DNA of 64,000 nucleotides. It comes from a virus. Of this stretch, positions 234 through 58,264 are shown piece after piece (positions within the stretch are counted from its first letter, which is position 1; every line of letters begins with the position of its first letter). The stretch spans positions 36,190 through 100,189 of the IMG/VR virus record IMGVR_UViG_3300028197_000962; one strand, 5' to 3'. The translations under genes were made by a program, and so were the position numbers. Below the pieces are notes generated by a model. That model was given only the letters and a program-made list of their open reading frames with translations. It was not told the origin of the DNA and did no database searches.

Positions 234-1697
234 TTATTTTAAGTTAACTGTGATAATTTCATAATTAAAATTTTCTTCGTTATAGATTTTAATTCTTTCA
301 ATTAGGTGATTTAAAGTATAGTTTTTTTGTGATCTGTAAGTGCAATCATCAGCGATATCAAAGAGAACTGCTTTCACTTTGTTATTCCCCTTTCTAAGAA
401 CTCGTCCAATGCTTTGTAAGTTTCTGATCCTAGACTTACTTGGAGAGGCGAAGATAACATTATGGAGATTTTTAATATTGATACCAGTAGAAAAAGTTCC
501 ATAAGAGGCAACGATGATAGCGTTGTTTTCTTGTTCTGTAATTTCCCTAACTAGTTCACGCTCAGAGGCATTTACTCCGCCATGGACAAAGAATACCTTT
601 CTGTTTTCACTTGTTTTTTTATTATTTATTTTATCATAAAGGACTGCTCCGTGGGACTCAACTCTTGAATATAAGATAAGAGTATTTCCTTTTAGATCCA
701 AAGCAAGATTAGTAACAAAGTTATTTCTTTGTTCATGAGTAATAATATATTGAACTTCGTCTTCAAATGTCTCAAATTTTTGTGGAGAATGTTTTAAGAG
801 AACACAATTAATATCTAACTTAGAAAGATAACCTTTCTCCATCAATTCTTCTGTTCTGATAATTTTATATGAAGGTCCAAACAATCCCTCTAACACCCAT
901 TTATGCGTCTGTGTGCCGTCAAGTGTTCCAGTAAATCCAAATCTATGCTTGGCAGTATGCATCTTAGTCATGATCTGAACCAGTGACTTTGATTTAAATA
1001 GATGTGCTTCGTCACCGATTACAACTTCAAATCTTTCAAACCATTTACGATCTAATTTATAAATAGATTGCCACGTGGTAATTACAATTGGCCGACTATC
1101 CGTCTTTTCGCGCCCAGAGTAGATGCGGTGACAATAAGTCTCTGCCTCCCACCCATATTCCTCAAAGTCCTTATACATCTGCTCTACCAGACTGGTCGTG
1201 GGAACAACTACCAGAATATTTTTCTTGTGCTCTACATAATACCTACAAAGAGAATAAATCATCAGAGATTTGCCTGATGCAGTGGGAGATATCAATAGTC
1301 TTCGGTTGTGTCTTAGAGCATCGTATACTCCCTCGACTTGGTGTGGTCGTGGCTCGTAGACCGCGATCGACTTGATATAATCTTTTACACCCTCATATGA
1401 GATAGTCTCATTCACTTCAAAGGGTGTACCAAAAAATTTATTATCAACAAACTTATATTCATATCCGTAGCGTTTGCAAAATGATATAAGTTTGTCTAAC
1501 AATCCAACGTAGATTTCTCCTGTTGCCGTAGAGAATAAACGAATTTTTCCATCCCAATACTTGTTCCTGTATTGTGGCATGAATTTTGCACCAGGAACCT
1601 CAAAAGTAAACTCATCAGAGAGTTCCTGATATACATGAGGATCTGCTTGTATTCTTAAAAATACTTCGTTCTTTTTTTCAATACTAAGTTCAACCAT
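234..1697 (-). CDS. uvsW: UvsW-type recombination helicase (SF2)
   Basis: This is the T4 UvsW homologue, an ATP-dependent SF2 helicase that unwinds branched DNA and R-loops, processes stalled forks and helps shift replication from origin- to recombination-dependent mode. Visible motifs are Walker A SPTASGKS, the DEAH box in GDEAHLF, motif III in TGTLDG and motif VI QSIGRVLRKG. The N-terminal part (roughly the first 110 residues) carries the UvsW-specific substrate-binding module with the YWDGKIRLF signature. The ATG at 1697, which overlaps the uvsY stop by 8 nt, is preferred over an in-frame ATG at 1730 inside uvsY because MVELSIEKKNEVFLRIQ matches where UvsW normally begins. The resulting 487 residues are close to T4 UvsW in length. 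Confidence 0.95.
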   Translation of the reverse strand: MVELSIEKKNEVFLRIQADPHVYQELSDEFTFEVPGAKFMPQYRNKYWDGKIRLFSTATGEIYVGLLDKLISFCKRYGYEYKFVDNKFFGTPFEVNETISYEGVKDYIKSIAVYEPRPHQVEGVYDALRHNRRLLISPTASGKSLMIYSLCRYYVEHKKNILVVVPTTSLVEQMYKDFEEYGWEAETYCHRIYSGREKTDSRPIVITTWQSIYKLDRKWFERFEVVIGDEAHLFKSKSLVQIMTKMHTAKHRFGFTGTLDGTQTHKWVLEGLFGPSYKIIRTEELMEKGYLSKLDINCVLLKHSPQKFETFEDEVQYIITHEQRNNFVTNLALDLKGNTLILYSRVESHGAVLYDKINNKKTSENRKVFFVHGGVNASERELVREITEQENNAIIVASYGTFSTGINIKNLHNVIFASPSKSRIRNLQSIGRVLRKGNNKVKAVLFDIADDCTYRSQKNYTLNHLIERIKIYNEENFNYEIITVNLK

Positions 1698-31540: not shown

Positions 31541-34500
31541 GTTAGATAACCAACTGATTTTAGGGGTAGACTCCTTAAAATCAATGGTCCGGTGGATATG
31601 CCAGTAAATCCATTACTTAGTGAAGGTGTAAATGTTTTCGCAATACCAGATCTAGTGAACGATTTAAGTTGACCCCAACTATATCTACCGAAGAATTGAC
31701 TATGACCAATTCCTGTTATACCGTTGAGACTATCAACATTTACTGTAACCTTAACAACATGGGTTGTTCCGATTCCAACTGCTTCCGTTGTTGCAATAGA
31801 AACAGATGCTGCCTCATACACATTGTCTAAACAAGTTGTTCCAATTCCAAGAACGGAACCACCAAGATCAAGCGATGTAACTCCTTGACCAATATTGGAA
31901 TCAAATACAACAAATGGATATCCACTTGCAATATTCGGAATTGTTCTTGCAGCACCAGGACCCATAAATGCGGTGCTTCTCAAAATAGAATTCGATGGAA
32001 TAAGAAGATCAAATACAAGTTTTGTAGGAGATGCTGTAGAAACTCCACTAATAACTCCATAATCACCTGCATAGTTTACACTCTTAATTTCTTCTACTTC
32101 AAAGTTTGGAGGAGTAAGCAGAATGACAGGTGGATTGCTGAATGTATATCCAGCACCAGCGTTACTTACATTGATTGAAGTAACTGCTGTTCCAGTTATG
32201 GACGCAATAGCAGTTGCTCTGGTTGCAGAACCAAGACCAACACTATTGGCAATAGAAACTAATGGTGCCGTCGTGTATCCAAGACCAGAGTTTGTGATAC
32301 TGATTGAAGCAACAGTACCAAAACCAGATATAATAGCGGTAGCTGCTGCTCCAATTTTAAGATCTTGATTTATAATTCTTACTGTTTGTAAGTCACTTCT
32401 CAAAGATTCTGGATAACTATCAAATGCAGCAACACTATCCACCCAGATTTCAGTAGAACCTAAACCAACTGGTTTAATAATATGTGTTTCTGGGAAAATT
32501 CTTGCAGCATAAAGGTCTCTATCTTTTGTTACAGCATTTCCATCTAAGAATAAATCTTCCTGTTGTTTGCACCACATCATTGGTCTTTGAAGTGTTGCAT
32601 CAGTTCTTAAACCGGGCCCTTGATATGGAGATGTAGCGAAAGCATCAGCAGTTGTGATACCAGATACAAATCTTGTATCCTGAATAAACTCGAATGAATT
32701 CTGATCTTTACCTGCAGTAATTCTAACGGTATCTCCGGTTTTAATTGTTTCAATAATATCTTTACTAATAACATCAACACCACCAGTTCCGCGATAGAAC
32801 ATAATCGAACATGTGTCACCAACTTTTGGTGCTTCTATAAATGTAATGTTTGAACCACCATTAAATCGATATGCAACTCCTGGTTCTTGTAAAATGTCAT
32901 TCAAGAATACTAAGATAGTTTGTTCAACATCAATTAAAGATCCTTTTTGTGCTCTAATGGAAGTTGTTGCTTCTCCCTTTTTCAAAGTGAAGACCTTAGA
33001 TTCTCCATCGAAGAAGGAATCAAGTTTATCAAATACATCTAAATCACCAAATCTCCATCCTGTAAATTTGTCAGAAGAAATTCTACTTAAATTAATTCTA
33101 AAATCATTTACCCCAGCACCAACGAATCTATGGATGTATGAAGAACCTGATTGAGCAGGACCAACATCGAAAGTAATTGAATCAGAGGAAATTGAAGTAA
33201 CTGTGCGACCAGTTCCCGATGCAGGATCAGTTGGTCTTGGATAACCAATCTGTTGTTTGAATTGATCACTATCACAAGAGAAGATTAACGACTCATCAAC
33301 CAAAGTAATTTGATCAGTTACCACAATAGTGTGAATACCAATAGTTGCAGTAATAACACCAGAAACAGCATCGTATGCTGCAAACTCAACTTTATAGTTA
33401 TTAGTACCAAATCCAATAGGAGTAGTAGAAATACTATAAGTTGGTATACCAGTAACTCCACCTTTTGGAACTGTTAAAATTTCTCCGGCTTTAAATCCAT
33501 ATCCACTATTAATAATATCAAAACCAGATACATTAGAGTTTTGTGAAACTTTTATGTCAATATAAGCATTTGTTCCAATTTTAGATCCAGGAGAATCTGG
33601 ATGATAAATTAATGGAATACGTGTATATGGAATTGGGTCATCAAAGACAACAATCGGAGGATTGCTGAATGTATACCCTGTACCAGGATTTGTAATGGTA
33701 ACACTAGTGATGTTGCCATTTGATACAATTGCCGTACCAATAGATGTTACATTAACAGTGTCAATGTCACTAGTTCTAAGACCAACATTATAATCCAATT
33801 CAAGAACAACTCCATTAAGAGTTGCAATTCCCGATCTATATCCAGAACCACTATTACCAATACTAATAGAGGTTATAGTTCCAAATCCACTAACATTAGC
33901 AGTTCCGCCAGCAGCCACTAATGGTTGATAACCATAACCTTGACTAGAACCAACTGAAATAATGACACCACCAACAGGAATACTACCGGTGTTTACATCA
34001 TTTGTGACAGATGCCGCGAATCCACTGAATACGACAGATGTGATACCAGCGTTTTCAGTAAACTCGAAATCATTAATTCTAGAACCCTGAGATGGAATTT
34101 GTACAATATCGTTAATTAGAATAAGACCATGAGTGGTGCTAAATGCCTCAACGTTAACTCCATCTTGTCTGAGAGTGAAAGTTTTGCCAACACCAGTCAA
34201 TTCTGTTGATATGGAATCAAATAAGTAATTGGTTGCATAAGTATGTGTAGAAGTTCCAACTAAACCACTTCTTATGAAAGATCTTCCTTGGAAAGTGGAT
34301 GTGGTTTGAATTCCAGTATAATCAATATCATCTGGGTCAGTTCCTTCTTTTGGAACTAATCCATTAGGAGCAGTGTAAAAATTAATAGTATTTTGAACAA
34401 TATTATAACTACCTTCATATTTTTCTACTTTGGCACCAAGAGCGTGAGTAGCAAACCCAGTTCCCATCCATCCTCTTTGAACTACTAACACGTTAGTGCT

Positions 34501-50001: not shown

Positions 50002-50252
50002 CCAGTAGACTCATCAGGTGGAAACATCTTATAAAAAAGATCATCATCAGCATCATCTATCATATCACGTTGCTTAACGAGAAACTGAATTGAGGCATTG
50101 TAGTTGTCAATCTGTTTCTGTAATTCTTCTTTCTTAAAGTTCAACTCCATAATAGACTTATTGATCTCGACTCTATCCATGTCTTCTTTGATTGGGGTCA
50201 GTGATGTCATTTTAGAAAGTGCAGATTTAACGTTCAAAATGGTGCGCTCCAT
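49992..50252 (-). CDS. Coiled-coil hypothetical (86 aa)
   Basis: An 86-residue, highly charged helical protein with a strong heptad pattern in the middle (MELNFKKEELQKQIDNYNAS) and an acidic C-terminal tail (DDADDDLFYKMFPPDES). It overlaps the upstream gene by 19 nt and the downstream one by 10 nt in a compressed early operon. No function can be assigned. Confidence 0.72.
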   Translation of the reverse strand: MERTILNVKSALSKMTSLTPIKEDMDRVEINKSIMELNFKKEELQKQIDNYNASIQFLVKQRDMIDDADDDLFYKMFPPDESTGWN

Positions 50253-50416
50253 GACTCATATTTCTTCATGGTGATATAACCTTCTTTGCAAAGATCATCA
50301 GTGAATATACCCCATGCTTCTCTCTTTGCATGAATGTTATCAACCACTGGATTTTGCTTGATTGCAACTTTCCAATTGTAGCGAAATTGTGCGACTGCTT
50401 GTGATTTAGTAATCAT
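50234..50416 (-). CDS. Small hypothetical (60 aa)
   Basis: A 60-residue protein (MITKSQAVAQFRYNWKVAIK, VDNIHAKREAWGIFTDDLCK) of predicted helical fold, starting 5 nt after the stop of the previous gene and overlapping the next one by 19 nt. Aromatic-rich, no family recognised. Confidence 0.72.
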   Translation of the reverse strand: MITKSQAVAQFRYNWKVAIKQNPVVDNIHAKREAWGIFTDDLCKEGYITMKKYESWSAPF

Positions 50417-50421
50417 GAGTT

Positions 50422-50628
50422 TCAGTTACCTGCTGTGTCGAATGATTCGTTGTAGACATCATAAAAGAGGTCAAATGCTGCTAAGTCATTTACAAACGGG
50501 GCAGACATTTCGCAGACCCAATCATATGCCATATCCAGGTCAGCATCGGTGCTGAGTAGGAAGGCAGGCAGGTCCCGCAGTGCTTGGATGAAGGCAGGAT
50601 CGGTGAGACGGAAATTTGTTTTGTTCAT
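50422..50628 (-). CDS. Small acidic hypothetical (68 aa), predicted leaderless
   Basis: A 68-residue acidic protein (MNKTNFRLTDPAFIQALRDL, SAPFVNDLAAFDLFYDVYNE). The ATG at 50628 is preferred to an ATG at 50694 because it sits exactly 6 nt after the -10 box of a promoter with 17-nt spacing, so transcription should begin at or next to the A of the ATG. No Shine-Dalgarno sequence exists upstream within that transcript. First gene of the operon running down to 49325. Function unknown. Confidence 0.72.
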   Translation of the reverse strand: MNKTNFRLTDPAFIQALRDLPAFLLSTDADLDMAYDWVCEMSAPFVNDLAAFDLFYDVYNESFDTAGN

Positions 50629-50634
50629 ACTGAT

Positions 50635-50688
50635 AGTATGGCAGATCTGAGGGAGAATTGCAAGCGATAGTGGACACTCTCCCAACTG
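50635..50688 (-). promoter_or_regulatory. Early promoter with upstream element (copy 1)
   Basis: On the minus strand: CAGTT-N7-TGTCCACT (50669-50688), then TTGCAA (50658-50663), 17-nt spacer, CATACT (50635-50640). The upstream element ends 28 nt before the -10 box. The -10 box forms a 15-bp palindrome with the start codon (CATACT-N3-AGTATG, 50626-50640). A very similar arrangement occurs at 54586-54648. Confidence 0.75.
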
Positions 50689-50690
50689 GT

Positions 50691-50942
50691 TCACTTACCG
50701 ATTCCCATGGGATCATCTGCGCTATACTCCAAAGCAGAGAATGATGTTACGTTCTCATCTAAACATATGCCTGGATAATATCCTTCTGCTTCCTCAATTA
50801 GTTTATCAATTGTATACTCATCATACAATGAATTGAAGTAACTGAATAACACGTATCTCATTGTTTTGAGATCCATGTCATCAATCTGATTCATGATTAA
50901 TTGCTCTTGTAGTGCATCACGATCAACGATGTTGTCTTTCAT
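50691..50942 (-). CDS. Acidic hypothetical (83 aa)
   Basis: An 83-residue acidic helical protein (MKDNIVDRDALQEQLIMNQI, LYDEYTIDKLIEEAEGYYPG). Its ATG overlaps the stop of the preceding gene (ATGA). Its stop falls directly after the copy-1 upstream promoter element of the next operon. No motif; presumed early host-interaction protein by location only. Confidence 0.75.
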   Translation of the reverse strand: MKDNIVDRDALQEQLIMNQIDDMDLKTMRYVLFSYFNSLYDEYTIDKLIEEAEGYYPGICLDENVTSFSALEYSADDPMGIGK

Positions 50943-51088
50943 AGTGAAGTGAACTCCTCAACGTAATAGCGGGCAGAGATCTTTAATTGCTCTGCTTTTG
51001 TCATGATTTCATCGATCTGATCTTCTGATAGATCTTCGATGACCCATGTTAGATAGTGCAGATCTTCTTCGATAGTAGTTTCCATCAT
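50939..51088 (-). CDS. Small acidic hypothetical (49 aa)
   Basis: A 49-residue protein (MMETTIEEDLHYLTWVIEDL, QIDEIMTKAEQLKISARYYV). The start at 51088 forms an ATGA overlap with the preceding stop and is preferred over an ATG-independent extension to 51121. It is acidic and helical and ends in ATGA overlap with the next gene. Function unknown. Confidence 0.7.
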   Translation of the reverse strand: MMETTIEEDLHYLTWVIEDLSEDQIDEIMTKAEQLKISARYYVEEFTSL

Positions 51089-51240
51089 ACTGTGAATTGC
51101 TCCTGACTGAATTCGTCGCATTTGATGTTCATTGTGTCAACGTCGTTGAAGAATTCCTCAACTTGTTGTTCATCCCACTTCTCATAAAGTGACATTAACT
51201 CTTGATCGCTTTCGAGTGCCATAGTGCAAGGATCTGTCAT
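51085..51240 (-). CDS. Small acidic hypothetical (51 aa)
   Basis: A 51-codon gene (MTDPCTMALESDQELMSLYE, KWDEQQVEEFFNDVDTMN) joined to its neighbours by TAATG at the start and ATGA at the end. The pattern of acidic helices resembles the other mini-proteins of this operon. The exact coupling at both ends is the main evidence that it is translated. Confidence 0.7.
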   Translation of the reverse strand: MTDPCTMALESDQELMSLYEKWDEQQVEEFFNDVDTMNIKCDEFSQEQFTV

Positions 51241-51407
51241 TAGAAAATGTGTGTCCATGATGAATGTTGTGCTTTGGTGATTCTACCGTCTTTGAGCATA
51301 CCGTCGCAAACTTGACAGAAAACGCTGAACTTTTCGAGTCTTGTGAGGTTTGAATCTATCTCGTTGGAGGTTTCACCAACGACACGAATGAGAGTCTTTT
51401 TAAGCAT
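51240..51407 (-). CDS. Small hypothetical (55 aa)
   Basis: A 55-codon gene (MLKKTLIRVVGETSNEIDSN, VFCQVCDGMLKDGRITKAQH) with one CxxC pair (CQVC). It starts 9 nt after the stop of the 115-residue gene and ends in a TAATG overlap. Too short for a family call; a single CxxC could bind metal only as a dimer. Confidence 0.7.
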   Translation of the reverse strand: MLKKTLIRVVGETSNEIDSNLTRLEKFSVFCQVCDGMLKDGRITKAQHSSWTHIF

Positions 51408-51415
51408 CGTAAGAA

Positions 51416-51763
51416 TCAGGCAAAGATGAATCCGTTGGTGAAATCGTAGGTATTGAAGACTTTGCTTTGTCCTGCCATTCCTACGAACTTGTCAACATAC
51501 CACTGAAAGTTCTTCTGATAGACACACTCTCCATCAATGCAGAATTCTTCGCAAAGTGCATTGAGGCGTGATTTTGTGGTGGTAGACTGCCAACCACCGT
51601 CGAAGATTGTCATGGTGTCGTCTGAAACTTCTGCAATCTTGTTACCATGAAGACGAACGACGCTGACGCCTGAGGTCTCATCAAAATAAACTGCCGTGTT
51701 TCCTGACTGCCAATTGGCGTTGGATTGGATAGCGGCGTTCATCTGGGTTTCGATCTTGCGCAT
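51416..51763 (-). CDS. Widespread phage hypothetical (115 aa)
   Basis: A 115-residue protein of a family I have seen in many unrelated phages. Signature blocks are NWQSGNTAVYFDETSGVSVV, RLHGNKIAEVSDD, TIFDGGWQSTTTKSRLNALC and VYQKNFQWYV. The fold appears to be a small beta-barrel plus helix. It is the first gene of an operon continuing to 50691. A 26-bp sequence shared with another operon leader lies 18 nt upstream. Function unknown. Confidence 0.82.
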   Translation of the reverse strand: MRKIETQMNAAIQSNANWQSGNTAVYFDETSGVSVVRLHGNKIAEVSDDTMTIFDGGWQSTTTKSRLNALCEEFCIDGECVYQKNFQWYVDKFVGMAGQSKVFNTYDFTNGFIFA

Positions 51764-51780
51764 GAGTGGTTTGAGTGGTG

Positions 51781-51806
51781 TTCCTTTGACTCTTTAATAA
51801 TACACG
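51781..51806 (-). repeat. 26-bp operon-leader repeat, copy A
   Basis: Bases 51781-51806 are identical to 53134-53159, and the match extends with small gaps on both sides. On the minus strand it contains a TATTAT -10-like box (51797-51802) preceded by GTG, and an AAAGGA Shine-Dalgarno-like motif. It precedes the 115-residue gene. Confidence 0.7.
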
Positions 51807-51816
51807 ATTTTGGGCG

Positions 51817-52170
51817 TCACGCAACGGGGCTTAGACCTCTTTGGCGACTGTCACACCAACGGTCGTAAAGTATACTCTCCATGTGATATGCTTGATCTTC
51901 TCTCACTCTTTCAGTCAAAATGCCTGACTCGTTTTGTATTACATGCACTAATTCATGCAATAAAGTAGTAATATAGTCCGATTCGTTCAAGTTTTTATCA
52001 ATCTGTATAAATTGCTCATTTCCATTTGTTTCGGTGAACCCTAGGGCGTTTTCGGAACTAAGATCGGTGTGAAATACCTCAACATCACTTTGGATGGGAA
52101 ATTGCGATGTGAAGAAGTCAAAAACGTCCTGTGTAGGATAGTTCATTGATCTGCCGGAAGTGAATAACAT
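51817..52170 (-). CDS. HExxH zincin-like protein (117 aa)
   Basis: A 117-residue protein with a clear metalloprotease-type zinc motif, LLHELVHVIQNESG (HExxH), in the last third of the protein, followed by an acidic helix (YHMESILYDRW) that could supply a third ligand. The N-terminal half has no recognisable prodomain or signal peptide. It may be a minimal SprT/zincin-type peptidase acting on host proteins, or an inactive zinc-binding protein. The start overlaps the upstream stop (TGATG). Confidence 0.75.
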   Translation of the reverse strand: MLFTSGRSMNYPTQDVFDFFTSQFPIQSDVEVFHTDLSSENALGFTETNGNEQFIQIDKNLNESDYITTLLHELVHVIQNESGILTERVREDQAYHMESILYDRWCDSRQRGLSPVA

Positions 52171-52340
52171 CAGTTTGCGGGTTCTGGGAACTTGATTGCT
52201 TTAAGAATGTCCTGATAGTCTCTAACCTCGATCTCATCAAAGTCATATTCCTGTTGCTCTAAGCAATAGGTGATCAGATCGATTTGATCGGGTGAGAGTG
52301 TAACTTTGAGCATTGATCTCGATAGGGTTGACTTCATCAT
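52170..52340 (-). CDS. Small acidic hypothetical (56 aa)
   Basis: A 56-residue protein (MMKSTLSRSMLKVTLSPDQI, YCLEQQEYDFDEIEVRDYQD). The start at 52340 is fixed by an ATGA overlap with the preceding gene and replaces a longer extension to 52388. The stop overlaps the zincin-like start (TGATG). Function unknown. Confidence 0.72.
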   Translation of the reverse strand: MMKSTLSRSMLKVTLSPDQIDLITYCLEQQEYDFDEIEVRDYQDILKAIKFPEPAN

Positions 52341-52537
52341 TTTAGCATAGATTTCTCTTTTTTGCATATTGCACGGATGTAAGTCCATGCCGTTGAGTGA
52401 TTACGAAATCTCCTCATCTCGTTCTTTGTTCCTAACTCTGTCAGAGCAACATACATCGCTTTTTTGATAGGCATCGCGACATGATTGCCGCATTTGCATA
52501 CTATCGGGGGATGTGGGTCCAGGATTTGAGGGTTCAA
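52337..52537 (-). CDS. Small hypothetical with CxC and NHSTAWTYIRA motif, possible frameshift
   Basis: This frame (CKCGNHVAMPIKKAMYVALT, RRFRNHSTAWTYIRAICKKE) looks like a real protein and its stop is ATGA-coupled to the next gene. However, its 5' end has only a TTG at 52537 and no nearby ATG. A different frame starting with ATG at 52571, properly placed after the upstream gene, reads MSLIKQYLYNLL and then continues into unconvincing sequence to 52401. Joining the two by a +1 shift at about 52536-52540 would give one intact protein. A sequencing error, a mutation or a programmed shift are all possible. Confidence 0.55.
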   Translation of the reverse strand: MNPQILDPHPPIVCKCGNHVAMPIKKAMYVALTELGTKNEMRRFRNHSTAWTYIRAICKKEKSMLK

Positions 52538-52557
52538 GGAGATTGTAGAGATATTGT

Positions 52558-52737
52558 TTAATTAGTGACATATGTTTGCTTGATTGCATCGGTCTTGAAT
52601 CGTCTGCATAACTTGAATAGGAGTTTCAAGTCATCCTCAATCACATATCGAAACGAGTCAGATTCGATGATGAACTTACCATCTTCCATCCAGATTTGTG
52701 GGAGTTGTTTCTTGTAGATTGGGAAGTCAGTTGGCAT
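52558..52737 (-). CDS. Small hypothetical (59 aa)
   Basis: A 59-codon gene (MPTDFPIYKKQLPQIWMEDG, FIIESDSFRYVIEDDLKLLF) with alternating hydrophobic strands then a basic helix (KLCRRFKTDAIKQ). It starts 4 nt after the stop of the 35-codon gene. Placement in a gap-free operon and the amphipathic pattern support it. Function unknown. Confidence 0.68.
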   Translation of the reverse strand: MPTDFPIYKKQLPQIWMEDGKFIIESDSFRYVIEDDLKLLFKLCRRFKTDAIKQTYVTN

Positions 52738-52741
52738 GATG

Positions 52742-52849
52742 TTAGTTAGTGTGGGGTGAGTTGATAACTGTAACCCAGTTAGTTGGGGGTGATAGTTTGT
52801 TCGATACTTTCACCCAACGACCTTTGAAACGAACGAGAGTAAATTTCAT
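52742..52849 (-). CDS. Very small basic protein (35 aa)
   Basis: A 35-codon gene (MKFTLVRFKGRWVKVSNKLS) with an ATG 3 nt after the TGA of the previous gene (TGATTAATG arrangement). It is basic and rich in beta-formers. It fills an otherwise empty gap in a compact operon, but its shortness leaves real doubt. Confidence 0.5.
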   Translation of the reverse strand: MKFTLVRFKGRWVKVSNKLSPPTNWVTVINSPHTN

Positions 52850-52852
52850 TAA

Positions 52853-53125
52853 TCAACCCACACATGCCATGGGAGCATACTCAGAGCGAGGCATCTTGTC
52901 AACGTTGAAACCAGTAACCTCAGCACCTTTGGCAATACGTGAAGCAATCTCATGTTTGAAGTCAATAGCACCAATAGTGCTGTATGAGTTCTGATTACTG
53001 CCACGGAAATAAACACGTTTGACGAAACGACGAACGGTAACTTTCATTCCTTTGATGTCATCAGACTCAGCGATGAATGCCTCAGGGAAGAAATCAACGA
53101 CGACGGCAGAGTTTGAAATTTGCAT
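52853..53125 (-). CDS. Hypothetical protein (90 aa), first gene of operon
   Basis: A 90-residue basic protein (MQISNSAVVVDFFPEAFIAE, MKVTVRRFVKRVYFRGSNQN, AEVTGFNVDKMPRSEYAPMA). An AAAGGA site lies about 8-9 nt before the ATG within the operon-leader repeat. The upstream promoter carries the CAGTT-N8-TGTCCACT element. Mixed beta pattern, no family recognised; perhaps a nucleic-acid-binding early protein, judging only from charge. Confidence 0.72.
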   Translation of the reverse strand: MQISNSAVVVDFFPEAFIAESDDIKGMKVTVRRFVKRVYFRGSNQNSYSTIGAIDFKHEIASRIAKGAEVTGFNVDKMPRSEYAPMACVG

Positions 53126-53133
53126 GTGGTGTT

Positions 53134-53159
53134 TTCCTTTGACTCTTTAATAATACACG
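53134..53159 (-). repeat. 26-bp operon-leader repeat, copy B
   Basis: Identical to 51781-51806. Here it ends 8 nt before an ATG, so it contains both the -10-like TATTAT (53150-53155) and the ribosome binding site of the 90-residue gene. Confidence 0.7.
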
Positions 53160-53203
53160 GTTTTGACCCCTGTGGGGGGATCAGTGGACACTTTGACCAA
53201 CTG
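53150..53203 (-). promoter_or_regulatory. Early promoter with upstream element (copy 3)
   Basis: On the minus strand CAGTT-N8-TGTCCACT (53183-53203) is followed 27 nt later by TATTAT (53150-53155). No good -35 hexamer is present, so this promoter may depend on the upstream element. The element is part of an inverted repeat TGGACA/TGTCCA, unlike copies 1 and 2. Confidence 0.6.
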
Positions 53204-53227
53204 TCCACCAGCGGTGGCAAGGGATCT

Positions 53228-53287
53228 GGGGATGATGTAAACTGATTTTTCGATATTTTCGTTTGAAACGGGTGTTACGTCATCCCC
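53228..53287. repeat. Long imperfect inverted repeat in intergenic gap
   Basis: GGGGATGATGTAA (53228-53240) and TTACGTCATCCCC (53275-53287) are complementary over 13 bp with a single mismatch, around a 34-nt AT-rich centre that has smaller self-complementary pieces. No T-tract follows on either strand. It lies between the 48-codon gene and the copy-3 promoter. Confidence 0.55.
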
Positions 53288-53321
53288 GTAACTCCCGATA
53301 TGGAAAAATCACTAAATGATG

Positions 53322-53468
53322 CTAACTTCCCACGATTGGATTGACTCCTATCACCTTTGCAGTAGGATTTCGTGCCAAAGCTGTCTCTCTGGCATCCTTA
53401 TGACTAGTAGCATGTACTTCCTCTTTGAAAATTGTGCCACCAACATACAACTTGACTTCCCATTTCAT
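53322..53468 (-). CDS. Small conserved cyanophage hypothetical (48 aa)
   Basis: A 48-codon gene (MKWEVKLYVGGTIFKEEVHA, SHKDARETALARNPTAKVIG) with the beta-alpha-beta pattern of a protein I recognise in many cyanophages. It is coupled to the membrane-protein gene upstream by ATGA. No function known; the pattern of a strand pair followed by a DARETALARNP helix is well preserved. Confidence 0.8.
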   Translation of the reverse strand: MKWEVKLYVGGTIFKEEVHATSHKDARETALARNPTAKVIGVNPIVGS

Positions 53469-53683
53469 AGAGGTGAAAACAATTTAGTAGATGAGATGAT
53501 TAATAAGAAAGAGAGCATGATTACCACGTCCCACGATTTTGTTCTGATGAAGAATGGCACTGAGATAGCATCACCAATGAACTGCATAATCACTCCCAAT
53601 GATAGATTCACATGGAGAATGATGAAATATGCAGTGACCACAAGAAACGATCCTATGATTCTGCCAGCAATGTCAATCTTCAT
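53465..53683 (-). CDS. Small membrane protein (72 aa)
   Basis: A 72-residue protein with two hydrophobic segments (roughly 8-30, GRIIGSFLVVTAYFIILHVN; and 50-68, WDVVIMLSFLLIIS) separated by a loop with FIGDAISVPFFIRTKSWD. I recognise homologues in cyanophages. It presumably resides in the host inner or thylakoid membrane. It follows the ligase-like gene by 2 nt and is coupled to the next gene (ATGA). Function unknown. Confidence 0.82.
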   Translation of the reverse strand: MKIDIAGRIIGSFLVVTAYFIILHVNLSLGVIMQFIGDAISVPFFIRTKSWDVVIMLSFLLIISSTKLFSPL

Positions 53684-53685
53684 TA

Positions 53686-54588
53686 CTAAACATTTGCAAA
53701 CTTTTCGTTATTGAAGTTAGCACGAGAGAATTGAAAGCGATCAACGAGTTTAAACACACCAAACTGATTGATCATGACATAACCCTCGCCACGACATTGG
53801 CGTCCGTCAACATATGCTCTGGGACCATTGTTGCGACATAGCATCAGCATATCCATTTTGATTGATGCTACTAACTGCCACAAACGCAGCGTATTTACAT
53901 CGACTTGATTTGCATATGCAAGGGCATCAAGTGTAATGTCGTCGATGTTAAGACCTGATCGAATGATGCCATTGAATTGTTTTTGAAGCGATGCAGAATC
54001 CTTAGACTCCAAGAACTCACACGTGGTAGACATTTGACGTGCGAATGCAATCTTCTGACTGAAATCAGCATCAGTTACCCAACACTTAGGATGGACCCAT
54101 TTGACCTGATCGCTGTCTTTGTATGGAAGATATTGAAGAGGGTGAGCAACAGCATCACGCAGATCTTTGTCTGCTGTGTAGATTGTATGCGGTGCAATAA
54201 TGATAGTCTGATCGATTATCTCATCAAAAACATATGTAATAGTGTTAGGGGTATAAGTGTCATCACCTCCAATGCCAATGAAATCACCTTGAAGAATGCG
54301 ATTTGTTCGTGGAAGATTAGCAAAACAAGCATGGAGAATGATTGCTACCTCACCAGAATGATTCTGTTCGATCTCATCGTGCGAGTGATTGATCTTGATC
54401 TTGACTTTGTTGAACACAGACTTTGTGCCAACAAAGAATTTACCATTAGCAGGATTAGTACCCCAAACGATAGCGGGAGCTCCGTCAATCTTGACTGATA
54501 AGTGTGATTCTGCTGTGAACCAATCTAGAACTGAGAGATCACCCGTCAGGATGGAGTCTTCCGCGTGTTGGAGGTGTGTGTTTTTCAT
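53686..54588 (-). CDS. Nucleotidyltransferase/ligase-like protein (DUF6267-like)
   Basis: A 300-residue protein with hallmarks of the DNA/RNA ligase and capping-enzyme superfamily: a putative AMP-accepting lysine in SVKIDGAPAIVWG (KxDG, around residue 33), FVGTKSVFNK as motif Ia/III region, EGYVM as motif IV-like and a terminal KLVDRFQF as motif V-like. Phages carry several such uncharacterised ligase-like proteins. It may seal nicks or repair RNA in infected cells, or adenylate another target. It has no OB-fold domain. The ATG at 54588 begins exactly 6 nt after a -10 box, so a leaderless transcript is predicted. Confidence 0.78.
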   Translation of the reverse strand: MKNTHLQHAEDSILTGDLSVLDWFTAESHLSVKIDGAPAIVWGTNPANGKFFVGTKSVFNKVKIKINHSHDEIEQNHSGEVAIILHACFANLPRTNRILQGDFIGIGGDDTYTPNTITYVFDEIIDQTIIIAPHTIYTADKDLRDAVAHPLQYLPYKDSDQVKWVHPKCWVTDADFSQKIAFARQMSTTCEFLESKDSASLQKQFNGIIRSGLNIDDITLDALAYANQVDVNTLRLWQLVASIKMDMLMLCRNNGPRAYVDGRQCRGEGYVMINQFGVFKLVDRFQFSRANFNNEKFANV

Positions 54589-54594
54589 ACTATT

Positions 54595-54648
54595 AGTATG
54601 CCATGGAATGGGGTGAAAGTCAAGTGGTAGTGGACAGTTGTAGAACTG
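54595..54648 (-). promoter_or_regulatory. Early promoter with upstream element (copy 2)
   Basis: On the minus strand CAGTT-N7-TGTCCACT (54629-54648), TTGACT (54618-54623), 17-nt spacer, CATACT (54595-54600), 6 nt, then ATG. The element ends 28 nt before the -10 box as in copy 1, and the same CATACT-N3-AGTATG palindrome covers the -10 box and start codon (54586-54600). Confidence 0.78.
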
Positions 54649-54651
54649 GTA

Positions 54652-55425
54652 TCAATTCATTGCATTTAAGAGAGGATTATTGGTAGTCTTGTTAATCCAT
54701 TCATCTGCTTTTTCATAGTATTCTGCACTATTTTCAATGCCAATGTATTGACGATTTGTATTGATACACGCAATGCAAGTAGAACCAGATCCCATGCAAT
54801 TATCCATCACAACATCACCCTCATTGCTATATGTTTTAATGAAGTATTCAATCATTTCAACTGGTTTCTGTGTTGGATGAAACTTCAAAGGATTGTCATT
54901 GTTGACGACAGAAAACTTCAAAATGTCACGAGGGTAACGTATAGTTCTACCATCAGAATTGCCGAGTCTCTTATCAACGTGATTATAATTGCGTTTTTTA
55001 TCTGGTGCAGGCATGTTATCACGTGGCAGCACTGCATTCATCGGTTTATGACCTGTTGTCATCTGAGGATTGTAAGTTGGCAACTTACGATAAAATATCA
55101 GCACGTTTTCATGGGCTTTCATTGGCATTTTCTTCGCATTAAGATGCCCTGTTGCTTTATTCTTTTCCCAGATCCATTCATACTTAAAATATTTCAAATT
55201 AGAACATGCAAGAATCTTATCGAACGGTGGTTGTGCAGTAAGAACAATCGCACCATTTTCTTTCACGATACGATTATATTGTGCCCACAATTCATCAAAT
55301 GAAATCAAGCAGTCCCAATCGTTTTGTGTTGTTCCATATGGAAGATCACAAAAAATCATATCTACACAACCATCAGGAAGTGTAGACATAACATCCAAAC
55401 ATTTTCCTTTGAAAATTCTATTCAT
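54652..55425 (-). CDS. DNA methyltransferase (beta-class, N4/N6 type)
   Basis: A 257-residue site-specific amino-methyltransferase. The catalytic motif IV is DLPYGTTQNDWD near residues 27-38, followed by a probable target-recognition region; motif X-like FHPTQKPVEMIEYF and the SAM-binding motif I region DNCMGSGSTCIACIN come last, giving the IV-TRD-X-I order of the beta class. It would methylate adenine N6 or cytosine N4, possibly protecting phage DNA from host restriction. The start is ATG 55425 (MNRIFKGKCLDVMSTLPDG); a TTG 9 nt upstream is less likely. It follows the 204-residue gene with a 5-nt gap. Confidence 0.9.
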   Translation of the reverse strand: MNRIFKGKCLDVMSTLPDGCVDMIFCDLPYGTTQNDWDCLISFDELWAQYNRIVKENGAIVLTAQPPFDKILACSNLKYFKYEWIWEKNKATGHLNAKKMPMKAHENVLIFYRKLPTYNPQMTTGHKPMNAVLPRDNMPAPDKKRNYNHVDKRLGNSDGRTIRYPRDILKFSVVNNDNPLKFHPTQKPVEMIEYFIKTYSNEGDVVMDNCMGSGSTCIACINTNRQYIGIENSAEYYEKADEWINKTTNNPLLNAMN

Positions 55426-55430
55426 ACTGC

Positions 55431-56045
55431 TCAAACAACTGGCATAGGGGTAAGGTTGATCGGGTTGATTGTATTATAATCCGTTTGGTTCTTCATTTCA
55501 GTGACATTTTCAATATCATAATATAGATCAATGACATTAACTTTATCACCATATTGATCCTGTAAAACGTTTTCAATCTTAGTGCGATTCTTAGATCTCA
55601 CCACATTATCAAATCCTTTAACATTTCCTGTTTTTGTAAACATAGGTGCTAAACGAGGCATAACACTCACAAACAAGATTTTATCAAGTTTATTACAATC
55701 AGAGGCATAACAGAGTCGTGCTGACTCACCAATCGTAGTATTTGCATAATTCTTCATATTTTTATTAACACTGCTTTGATATGCTTTATCAAGAATTACA
55801 ATTCTTATGATATCATCAGTATCAAATCCTACCATATCAACCTGAAACGTTCCACCAAAAGCGTCATTGATCTTATATTCAAACTCCCAACGATATTCTG
55901 CCATCTCAGGATTAACGTTGAGAATCTCATTTAACAATGCTTTGTGCAGTTCATCAGTGCGATCCTTGCTGCGAACATTCTGGAATGAAGTAGTCAGGAA
56001 CTCGGAGAGGAATGGCATCGGTGTTTTGTTTGTTGATACAATCAT
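55431..56045 (-). CDS. Uncharacterised partner of the methyltransferase (204 aa)
   Basis: A 204-residue protein immediately upstream of the methyltransferase. The N-terminal half is helical and charged (RSKDRTDELHKALLNEILNV); the middle reads FQVDMVGFDTDDIIRIVILD-KA, a beta-hairpin reminiscent of, but not matching, the D...(D/E)xK core of PD-(D/E)XK nucleases because the expected acidic residue before xK is Leu. Therefore a restriction enzyme is only a possibility. Pairing suggests joint function or joint acquisition. No other domain is recognised. Confidence 0.75.
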   Translation of the reverse strand: MIVSTNKTPMPFLSEFLTTSFQNVRSKDRTDELHKALLNEILNVNPEMAEYRWEFEYKINDAFGGTFQVDMVGFDTDDIIRIVILDKAYQSSVNKNMKNYANTTIGESARLCYASDCNKLDKILFVSVMPRLAPMFTKTGNVKGFDNVVRSKNRTKIENVLQDQYGDKVNVIDLYYDIENVTEMKNQTDYNTINPINLTPMPVV

Positions 56046-56104
56046 AGCAGACCCTTAGGCGTGTTGTGTGGATGAGTAGACCGGTTTGCGAGGTGGCACA
56101 GTCA

Positions 56105-58099: not shown

Positions 58100-58210
58100 G
58101 TAGCAAGGAAGTTACACGAACTCCCCAGTTCATAAATGCCATGAACGACACAATAAACAATAGTTTTTGATTTACAGTCAAAGAGGTGATTATGTACTCC
58201 ACACAGTATA

Positions 58211-58241
58211 AGACCCCACACAGGCGATCTGAGCGGGGTCT
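58211..58241 (-). terminator. Possible hairpin terminator after fibre gene
   Basis: AGACCCC (58235-58241 region, minus strand) pairs with GGGGTCT (58211-58217) across a 17-nt loop, 24 nt after the fibre-gene stop. There is no good T-tract, so it could be a weak terminator or an mRNA-end stabiliser. Confidence 0.45.
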
Positions 58242-58264
58242 GGTACAGTTATTTGATTGTCACA

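Follow-up and report, generated by a model that had tools for sequence, protein, structure and literature searches.

How cyanomyoviruses control their early and middle transcription was described as unknown in a review that also reported MotA to be absent from these phages (PMC2984593). Here we analyse a short dyad-symmetric operator that stands just upstream of promoters in a 64,000-nt stretch, hereafter the window, of a T4-like cyanophage contig of 100,189 bp (IMG/VR record IMGVR_UViG_3300028197_000962), whose nearest annotated matches are Kyanoviridae. Several described systems come close to it, and the closest belongs to the host rather than to a phage.

In marine picocyanobacteria, the promoters of the genes for the regulatory RNA Yfr2 contain the element CGRE1, and PMC6778093 describes a GntR regulator, PMM1637, that is common to all cyanobacteria, binds these promoters and mediates the induction of Yfr2 in nitrogen starvation and high light; the same paper gives CGRE1 in MED4 as not occurring outside yfr2 promoters. 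A review equates this regulator with PlmA, to which it attributes the regulation of Yfr2 and whose regulon it calls undefined (PMC6243067). The phage operator shares with CGRE1 the half-site GTGNCAGTT, the site just upstream of the promoter and the host range, and the regulator is present in every host that we tested; for CGRE1, this comparison uses its description (Lambrecht et al. 2018, as cited in PMC6778093). In contrast to CGRE1, the phage sites precede protein genes, come in 6-20 copies and are mostly inverted dyads, whereas the host form is often everted.

The middle promoters of T4, with their MotA box and AsiA, are likewise a phage promoter class that carries an extra element and often lacks a -35 box. 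However, T4 itself encodes MotA, the box of which sits at about -30, whereas the cyanophage dyad is centred near -53, does not replace the -35 box and precedes genes that look early. No MotA-box match was found at any of the six sites in the window, and a search for the MotA domain (PF09114) found no match in 21 records, which is a weak negative as the control search was likewise empty. Host-regulator sites used by phages are also known from the NtcA and Pho boxes of cyanophages, one of them nitrogen-related too, but these serve other regulators and have other sequences, GTA-N8-TAC and CTTA-N7-CTTA (PMC3037559). Both sequences are absent at all six window sites. In the late promoters of P2 and P4, which depend on Ogr/Delta, a dyad is centred near -55 from the start site, a position nearly equal to that of the cyanophage element; unlike it, these promoters answer to a phage-encoded zinc-finger activator, drive late genes and have another sequence. 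Taking these comparisons with the sequence evidence below, we consider it likely that host PlmA has been recruited to phage early promoters, which it would bind and activate.

A dyad at a nearly fixed distance from promoters

A preliminary description of this DNA, made from its letters alone, had reported the pattern CAGTT-N7/8-TGTCCACT at 50669-50688, 53183-53203 and 54629-54648. The pattern occurs at exactly these three places in the window, always on the minus strand, where 0.03 copies are expected by chance and where no shuffle reached three; the rest of the contig adds no match. The reported distances from the last base of each copy to a -10 hexamer also hold (28, 27 and 28 nt, to CATACT, TATTAT and CATACT). 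However, the asymmetric box is not the full unit. The real one is longer and symmetric, a dyad of 22-25 bp whose midpoint is near -53 and whose form is GTGNCAGTT-N4/5-AACTGNC(C)AC(T); in copy 2 it reads GTGGACA-N11-TGTCCAC. We described this unit by a weight matrix trained on the regions upstream of two phage gene families, the orthologues of DUF6267 and phrog_500. A degenerate copy that had been suspected near 51831-51850 is supported as an operator, at 51830-51854 (matrix score 18.6), and precedes a gene of the Kyano_Gp96 family, for which 10 of 14 genomes show the element upstream. With this copy the window holds six, among them two that had been overlooked (56075-56099 and 58239-58263), and one further operator lies beyond it, at contig position 32229.

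The -35 boxes fared differently. Copy 1 has the one ascribed to it (TTGCAA-17-CATACT), but copy 2 has none, the hexamer 17 bp upstream being CCCCCA, and copy 3, which had been said to lack one, has TTGACT-17-CATACT. The earlier argument that an activator substitutes for a missing -35 box was thus hung on the wrong copy.

The element recurs across T4-like cyanophages. A scan of IMG/VR for GTGGACA-N9..13-TGTCCAC returned 61 sites in which the spacer is 10 bp, while the other spacer lengths had 15-21 sites each, and GTGNCAGTT-N4-AACTGTCCACT matched 114 stretches, with an estimated chance expectation below one. Of 87 distinct sites, 44 have their best -10 hexamer at 28 bp and 18 have it at 27 bp, and in 21 TTGA or TTGC follows 5 bp past the operator. 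At a matrix score of at least 20, copies of the composite promoter number 6-20 per genome in 15 large or complete genomes of T4-like cyanophages, although these phage counts are not fully independent because the matrix was trained and tested within the same phage group; the host yfr2 and Mic1 results given below are independent of it. The genomes are P-RSM4 (15 matches), Bellamy (12), P-HM2, S-PM2, S-SSM5 and P-SSM4 (11 each), ACG-2014b and S-RSM4 (10 each), Syn9 and Syn19 (9 each), S-SM1 (7), Syn1 (6) and three environmental genomes (11-20). Markov-simulated sequence gives 0-1.5 such matches per genome. The exception is S-SM2, with one match, which stands before cobS, a regulon gene.

In T4-like genomes most sites are concentrated in one region of ~10 kb, and the 5' end of a conserved open reading frame (ORF) lies close downstream of 79 of the 145 sites that score at least 22, versus 146 of 680 random positions. 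The genes downstream are unrelated to one another, the recurrent families being VWA peptidase, Kyano_Gp96, DUF6267, UvsW-like helicase, phrog_500 and cobS. Upstream of DUF6267 and phrog_500 orthologues, the dyad and its spacing are often retained amid diverged flanks, and are absent in some relatives. A -35 match of at least 4/6 is present in 53 of 144 promoters (16.5 expected), and a recognisable -35 box in only about one third of promoters fits dependence on an activator. In S-SM2-like phages (L144 and L219; also L161, L182-L185 and L148-L150), orthologues of the regulon genes have no dyad and share a different leader, AAGGGGGGTCGYCTAAAGCGTYYCNATAGTRTR, possibly that of another promoter class.

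A second phage group carries the element as well. Contigs G001 and G003, relatives of the Microcystis siphophage Mic1, have 8-9 copies each. The genome of Mic1 itself (92.6 kb) holds 21 strict sites, all of them in the stretch from 52.6 to 72.2 kb; simulated sequence yields none. This block coincides with gp49-gp73, within which RNA-seq places the 23 early genes (PMC11237433). Thus, the element probably marks early promoters: the sole expression evidence comes from Mic1, and in the marine T4-like phages the genes would likewise be early. The sites of Mic1 (L557, 21000-27200) are arranged in arrays of 56-62 bp repeat units, in part as tandem operator-promoter units.

The element at host yfr2 promoters

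Scans of host genomes with narrow forms of the motif found little. The strict 24-bp form had as its only match a phage-like contig in a Prochlorococcus single-cell genome; searching 201 Cyanobiaceae with mixed forms gave one site. The conclusion drawn from these two scans, that this is not a host regulon, was overturned by a relaxed-dyad scan, which found the element in 20 of 194 cyanobacterial genomes, usually as a single copy (control 0). A 189-kb cyanophage-looking contig in the Prochlorococcus single-cell genome AG-418-C09 (L262; contig C3 of G004) has 11 sites.

At 3 of the first 12 host sites inspected, an Rfam Cyano-1 RNA lies ~40-62 nt downstream. Cyano-1 is taken to be Yfr2, an equation of our own that draws on sequence, on copy number and on what PMC6778093 describes. 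The matrix, built from phage sites alone, reaches at least 8 bits in 24 of 48 non-redundant Cyano-1 (yfr2) promoters, at the position that it has in phages, while three control windows gave 0, 1 and 0 positives. An everted form, AACTGNCA-N-GTGNCAGTT, is present in 15 of 61 Cyanobiaceae genomes, and 13 of these 15 everted palindromes sit at yfr2 by Cyano-1 coordinates, so that the picocyanobacterial element is essentially confined to yfr2 promoters. In one yfr2 promoter (L596, ~1400-1500, reverse strand) the everted site centres a near-perfect palindrome of ~50 bp. Elsewhere, a conserved host dyad, GTGACACTTTCTTAACTGACAC, stands beside a pentapeptide-repeat gene in several cyanobacteria (L563-L569) and perhaps marks a further target of PlmA or a Yfr2 that has diverged. 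An Rfam search within the phage window had no match to an RNA element.

A probable host activator and its competitors

Which protein reads the operator? A GntR domain is encoded exactly once in each of five hosts, but in none of 21 phage records, nor in this contig. The GntR recognition helix, TGLHRNTISKVYRQLE, is identical in distant hosts, so one operator could serve Prochlorococcus and Microcystis phages alike. The preliminary description had proposed a phage regulon working like the MotA class of T4. Its shared activator-type site at a fixed promoter distance is borne out in many genomes, but the likeness to MotA is not: the same site at host yfr2, in combination with phages that lack GntR genes, suggests that early genes answer to a regulator of the host and not to a phage middle-mode activator. 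We found no literature report of the motif or of a cyanophage early-promoter element, although the 2018 CGRE1 paper may mention phage copies.

We envision that host sigma70 RNA polymerase reads the incoming phage DNA with the help of host PlmA, which would recruit the polymerase from a site directly 5' of the -35 position. Each early promoter would then combine three parts, a dyad of PlmA type at about -65 to -42, a -35 box that may be missing and a -10 box, an arrangement that T4-like cyanophages and, independently, Mic1-like siphophages would have built. About 6-20 transcription units could in this way be switched on without a phage-made activator, among them DUF6267, Kyano_Gp96, phrog_500, VWA peptidase, cobS, UvsW-like helicase and small unknown genes. 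Early genes must be read before phage proteins exist, which makes a host activator the most economical interpretation, and a site that adjoins the -35 position on its upstream side, with almost constant spacing, suits an activator in contact with the polymerase. With less assurance, we lean towards the broader view that PlmA, which hosts would themselves reserve almost wholly for one small RNA family, drives the early regulon in most T4-like cyanophages and has come to do so independently in Mic1-like siphophages.

Some observations pull the other way. About one third of the phage sites come with a fair -35 box and might fire unaided. G001 and G003 have other distances, ~22 and ~33 bp, which differ from the usual ones by about half a helical turn. 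Picocyanobacterial yfr2 promoters have a weak right half and often an everted second half, an addition found in only 2 of 145 phage sites, and the seven host dyads of L563-L569 do not adjoin an Rfam Cyano-1 match.

The numerous sites per phage genome could instead serve a regulator made by the phage, with the same target sequence as host PlmA or in competition with it for that sequence; such a regulator would be either an activator or a Cro-like repressor that ends early expression. The early genes of Mic1 do drop quickly after their peak (PMC11237433), and a gene close to the operator cluster in 11 genomes (Syn9 53744-54013, S-SSM5 50144-50329 and nine others) codes for a small AbrB/MazE-like protein, phrog_661 (PF04014, E 2.5e-4). 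However, phrog_661 is acidic and does not occur in Bellamy or P-HM2, no conserved DNA-binding protein was found to be shared by the site-bearing phages, and the only genes that the Mic1 relatives have in common with T4-like phages are PhoH and a Dam methylase. As the site is, moreover, present at yfr2 in uninfected hosts, we regard a phage-made regulator as unlikely. Pfam and PHROG scans of core cyanophage proteins gave no convincing DNA-binding candidate. The Dam methylase and phrog_661 had been considered as regulators from gene presence and absence, with S-SM2 taken as site-less; they were dropped because the single match of S-SM2 precedes cobS and because sites were also found in hosts. 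Mic1 gp73, a helix-turn-helix protein according to the paper on this phage (PMC11237433), lacks both a Pfam match and a homologue in the other phages and was rejected too.

PlmA might also bind the phage sites to the opposite effect, either repressing early genes on behalf of the host or being titrated by decoys that lower Yfr2. Some GntR proteins act as repressors, and the copies are plentiful, with dozens in Mic1 and 6-20 per T4-like phage. Against this, the sites are not scattered: they keep an almost constant spacing to the promoters that follow them and leave -35 and -10 clear, and many of these promoters have no -35 box; PMM1637 is, furthermore, described in PMC6778093 as mediating the induction of Yfr2. 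We judge repression or titration to be quite unlikely. Chance, or common descent of a few intergenic sequences, might have been invoked for the small sample of three copies on one contig, but is refuted, to the point of being negligible, by enrichment and fixed spacing over many genomes, by the unrelated genes and by the independent match at host yfr2.

Window sites and what host control would mean

The operators, promoters and genes of the window are collected below. At 50632-50640 (CATACT-ATC-AGTATG) and 54586-54600 (CATACT-AAT-AGTATG), the -10 box and the start codon make up a small palindrome. An ATG stands where the transcript should begin at copies 1 and 3, so these mRNAs may be leaderless.

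Table 1. Operator copies in the window, with their promoter boxes and downstream genes.
Feature	Position	Strand	Basis
Operator copy 1, left half degenerate (GAACCAGTT-N4-GAGTGTCCACT)	50669..50692	-	exact pattern; matrix 26.2
Copy 1 -10 box CATACT; -35 TTGCAA 17 bp upstream; ATG ~7 nt past -10	50635..50640	-	sequence
phrog_714 gene (function unknown), 3' of copy 1	50425..50634	-	operator in 3/6 family genomes
Degenerate operator (GTGACAGTC-N5-AGAGGTCTAAG)	51830..51854	-	matrix 18.6; strong copies at orthologues in 10/14 genomes
-10 box TATTAT of the degenerate copy	51797..51802	-	sequence
Kyano_Gp96 gene (PF23790), 3' of the degenerate copy	51416..51763	-	Pfam E 2.8e-51
Operator copy 2, most symmetric (GTGGACAGTTGGTCAAAGTGTCCAC)	53183..53207	-	exact pattern; matrix 28.5
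Copy 2 -10 box TATTAT, no -35	53150..53155	-	sequence
phrog_500 gene, 3' of copy 2	52853..53125	-	PHROG E 3.4e-32; operator in 6/8 genomes
Operator copy 3 (ATACCAGTT-N4-AACTGTCCACT)	54629..54652	-	exact pattern; matrix 29.7
Copy 3 -10 box CATACT; -35 TTGACT 17 bp upstream	54595..54600	-	sequence
DUF6267 gene (PF19782), 3' of copy 3	53686..54588	-	Pfam E 1.4e-80; footprint in relatives
Operator-like site (GTGCCACCT-N5-ACCGGTCTACT)	56075..56099	-	matrix 22.1
-10 box TATGAT of the 56075-56099 site, just upstream of ORF 55431-56045 (-)	56041..56046	-	sequence, ORF list
Weaker operator-like site (GTGACAATC-N5-ACTGTACCAGA)	58239..58263	-	matrix 21.3 only
-10 box TATACT of the 58239-58263 site	58205..58210	-	sequence

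What comes out of this comparison is a named candidate host factor with a defined list of putative targets in many genomes. It suggests a link between infection and the nitrogen and light signalling of the host, and it supplies candidate protein-gene targets for PlmA. If the proposed recruitment of PlmA is true, the start of infection would be tied to the carbon/nitrogen state of the host through PII-PipX-PlmA, and the ordering of early transcription would be explained in phages that have neither MotA nor AsiA. One host switch used by two unrelated phage lineages would, in addition, be a clear case of convergence.

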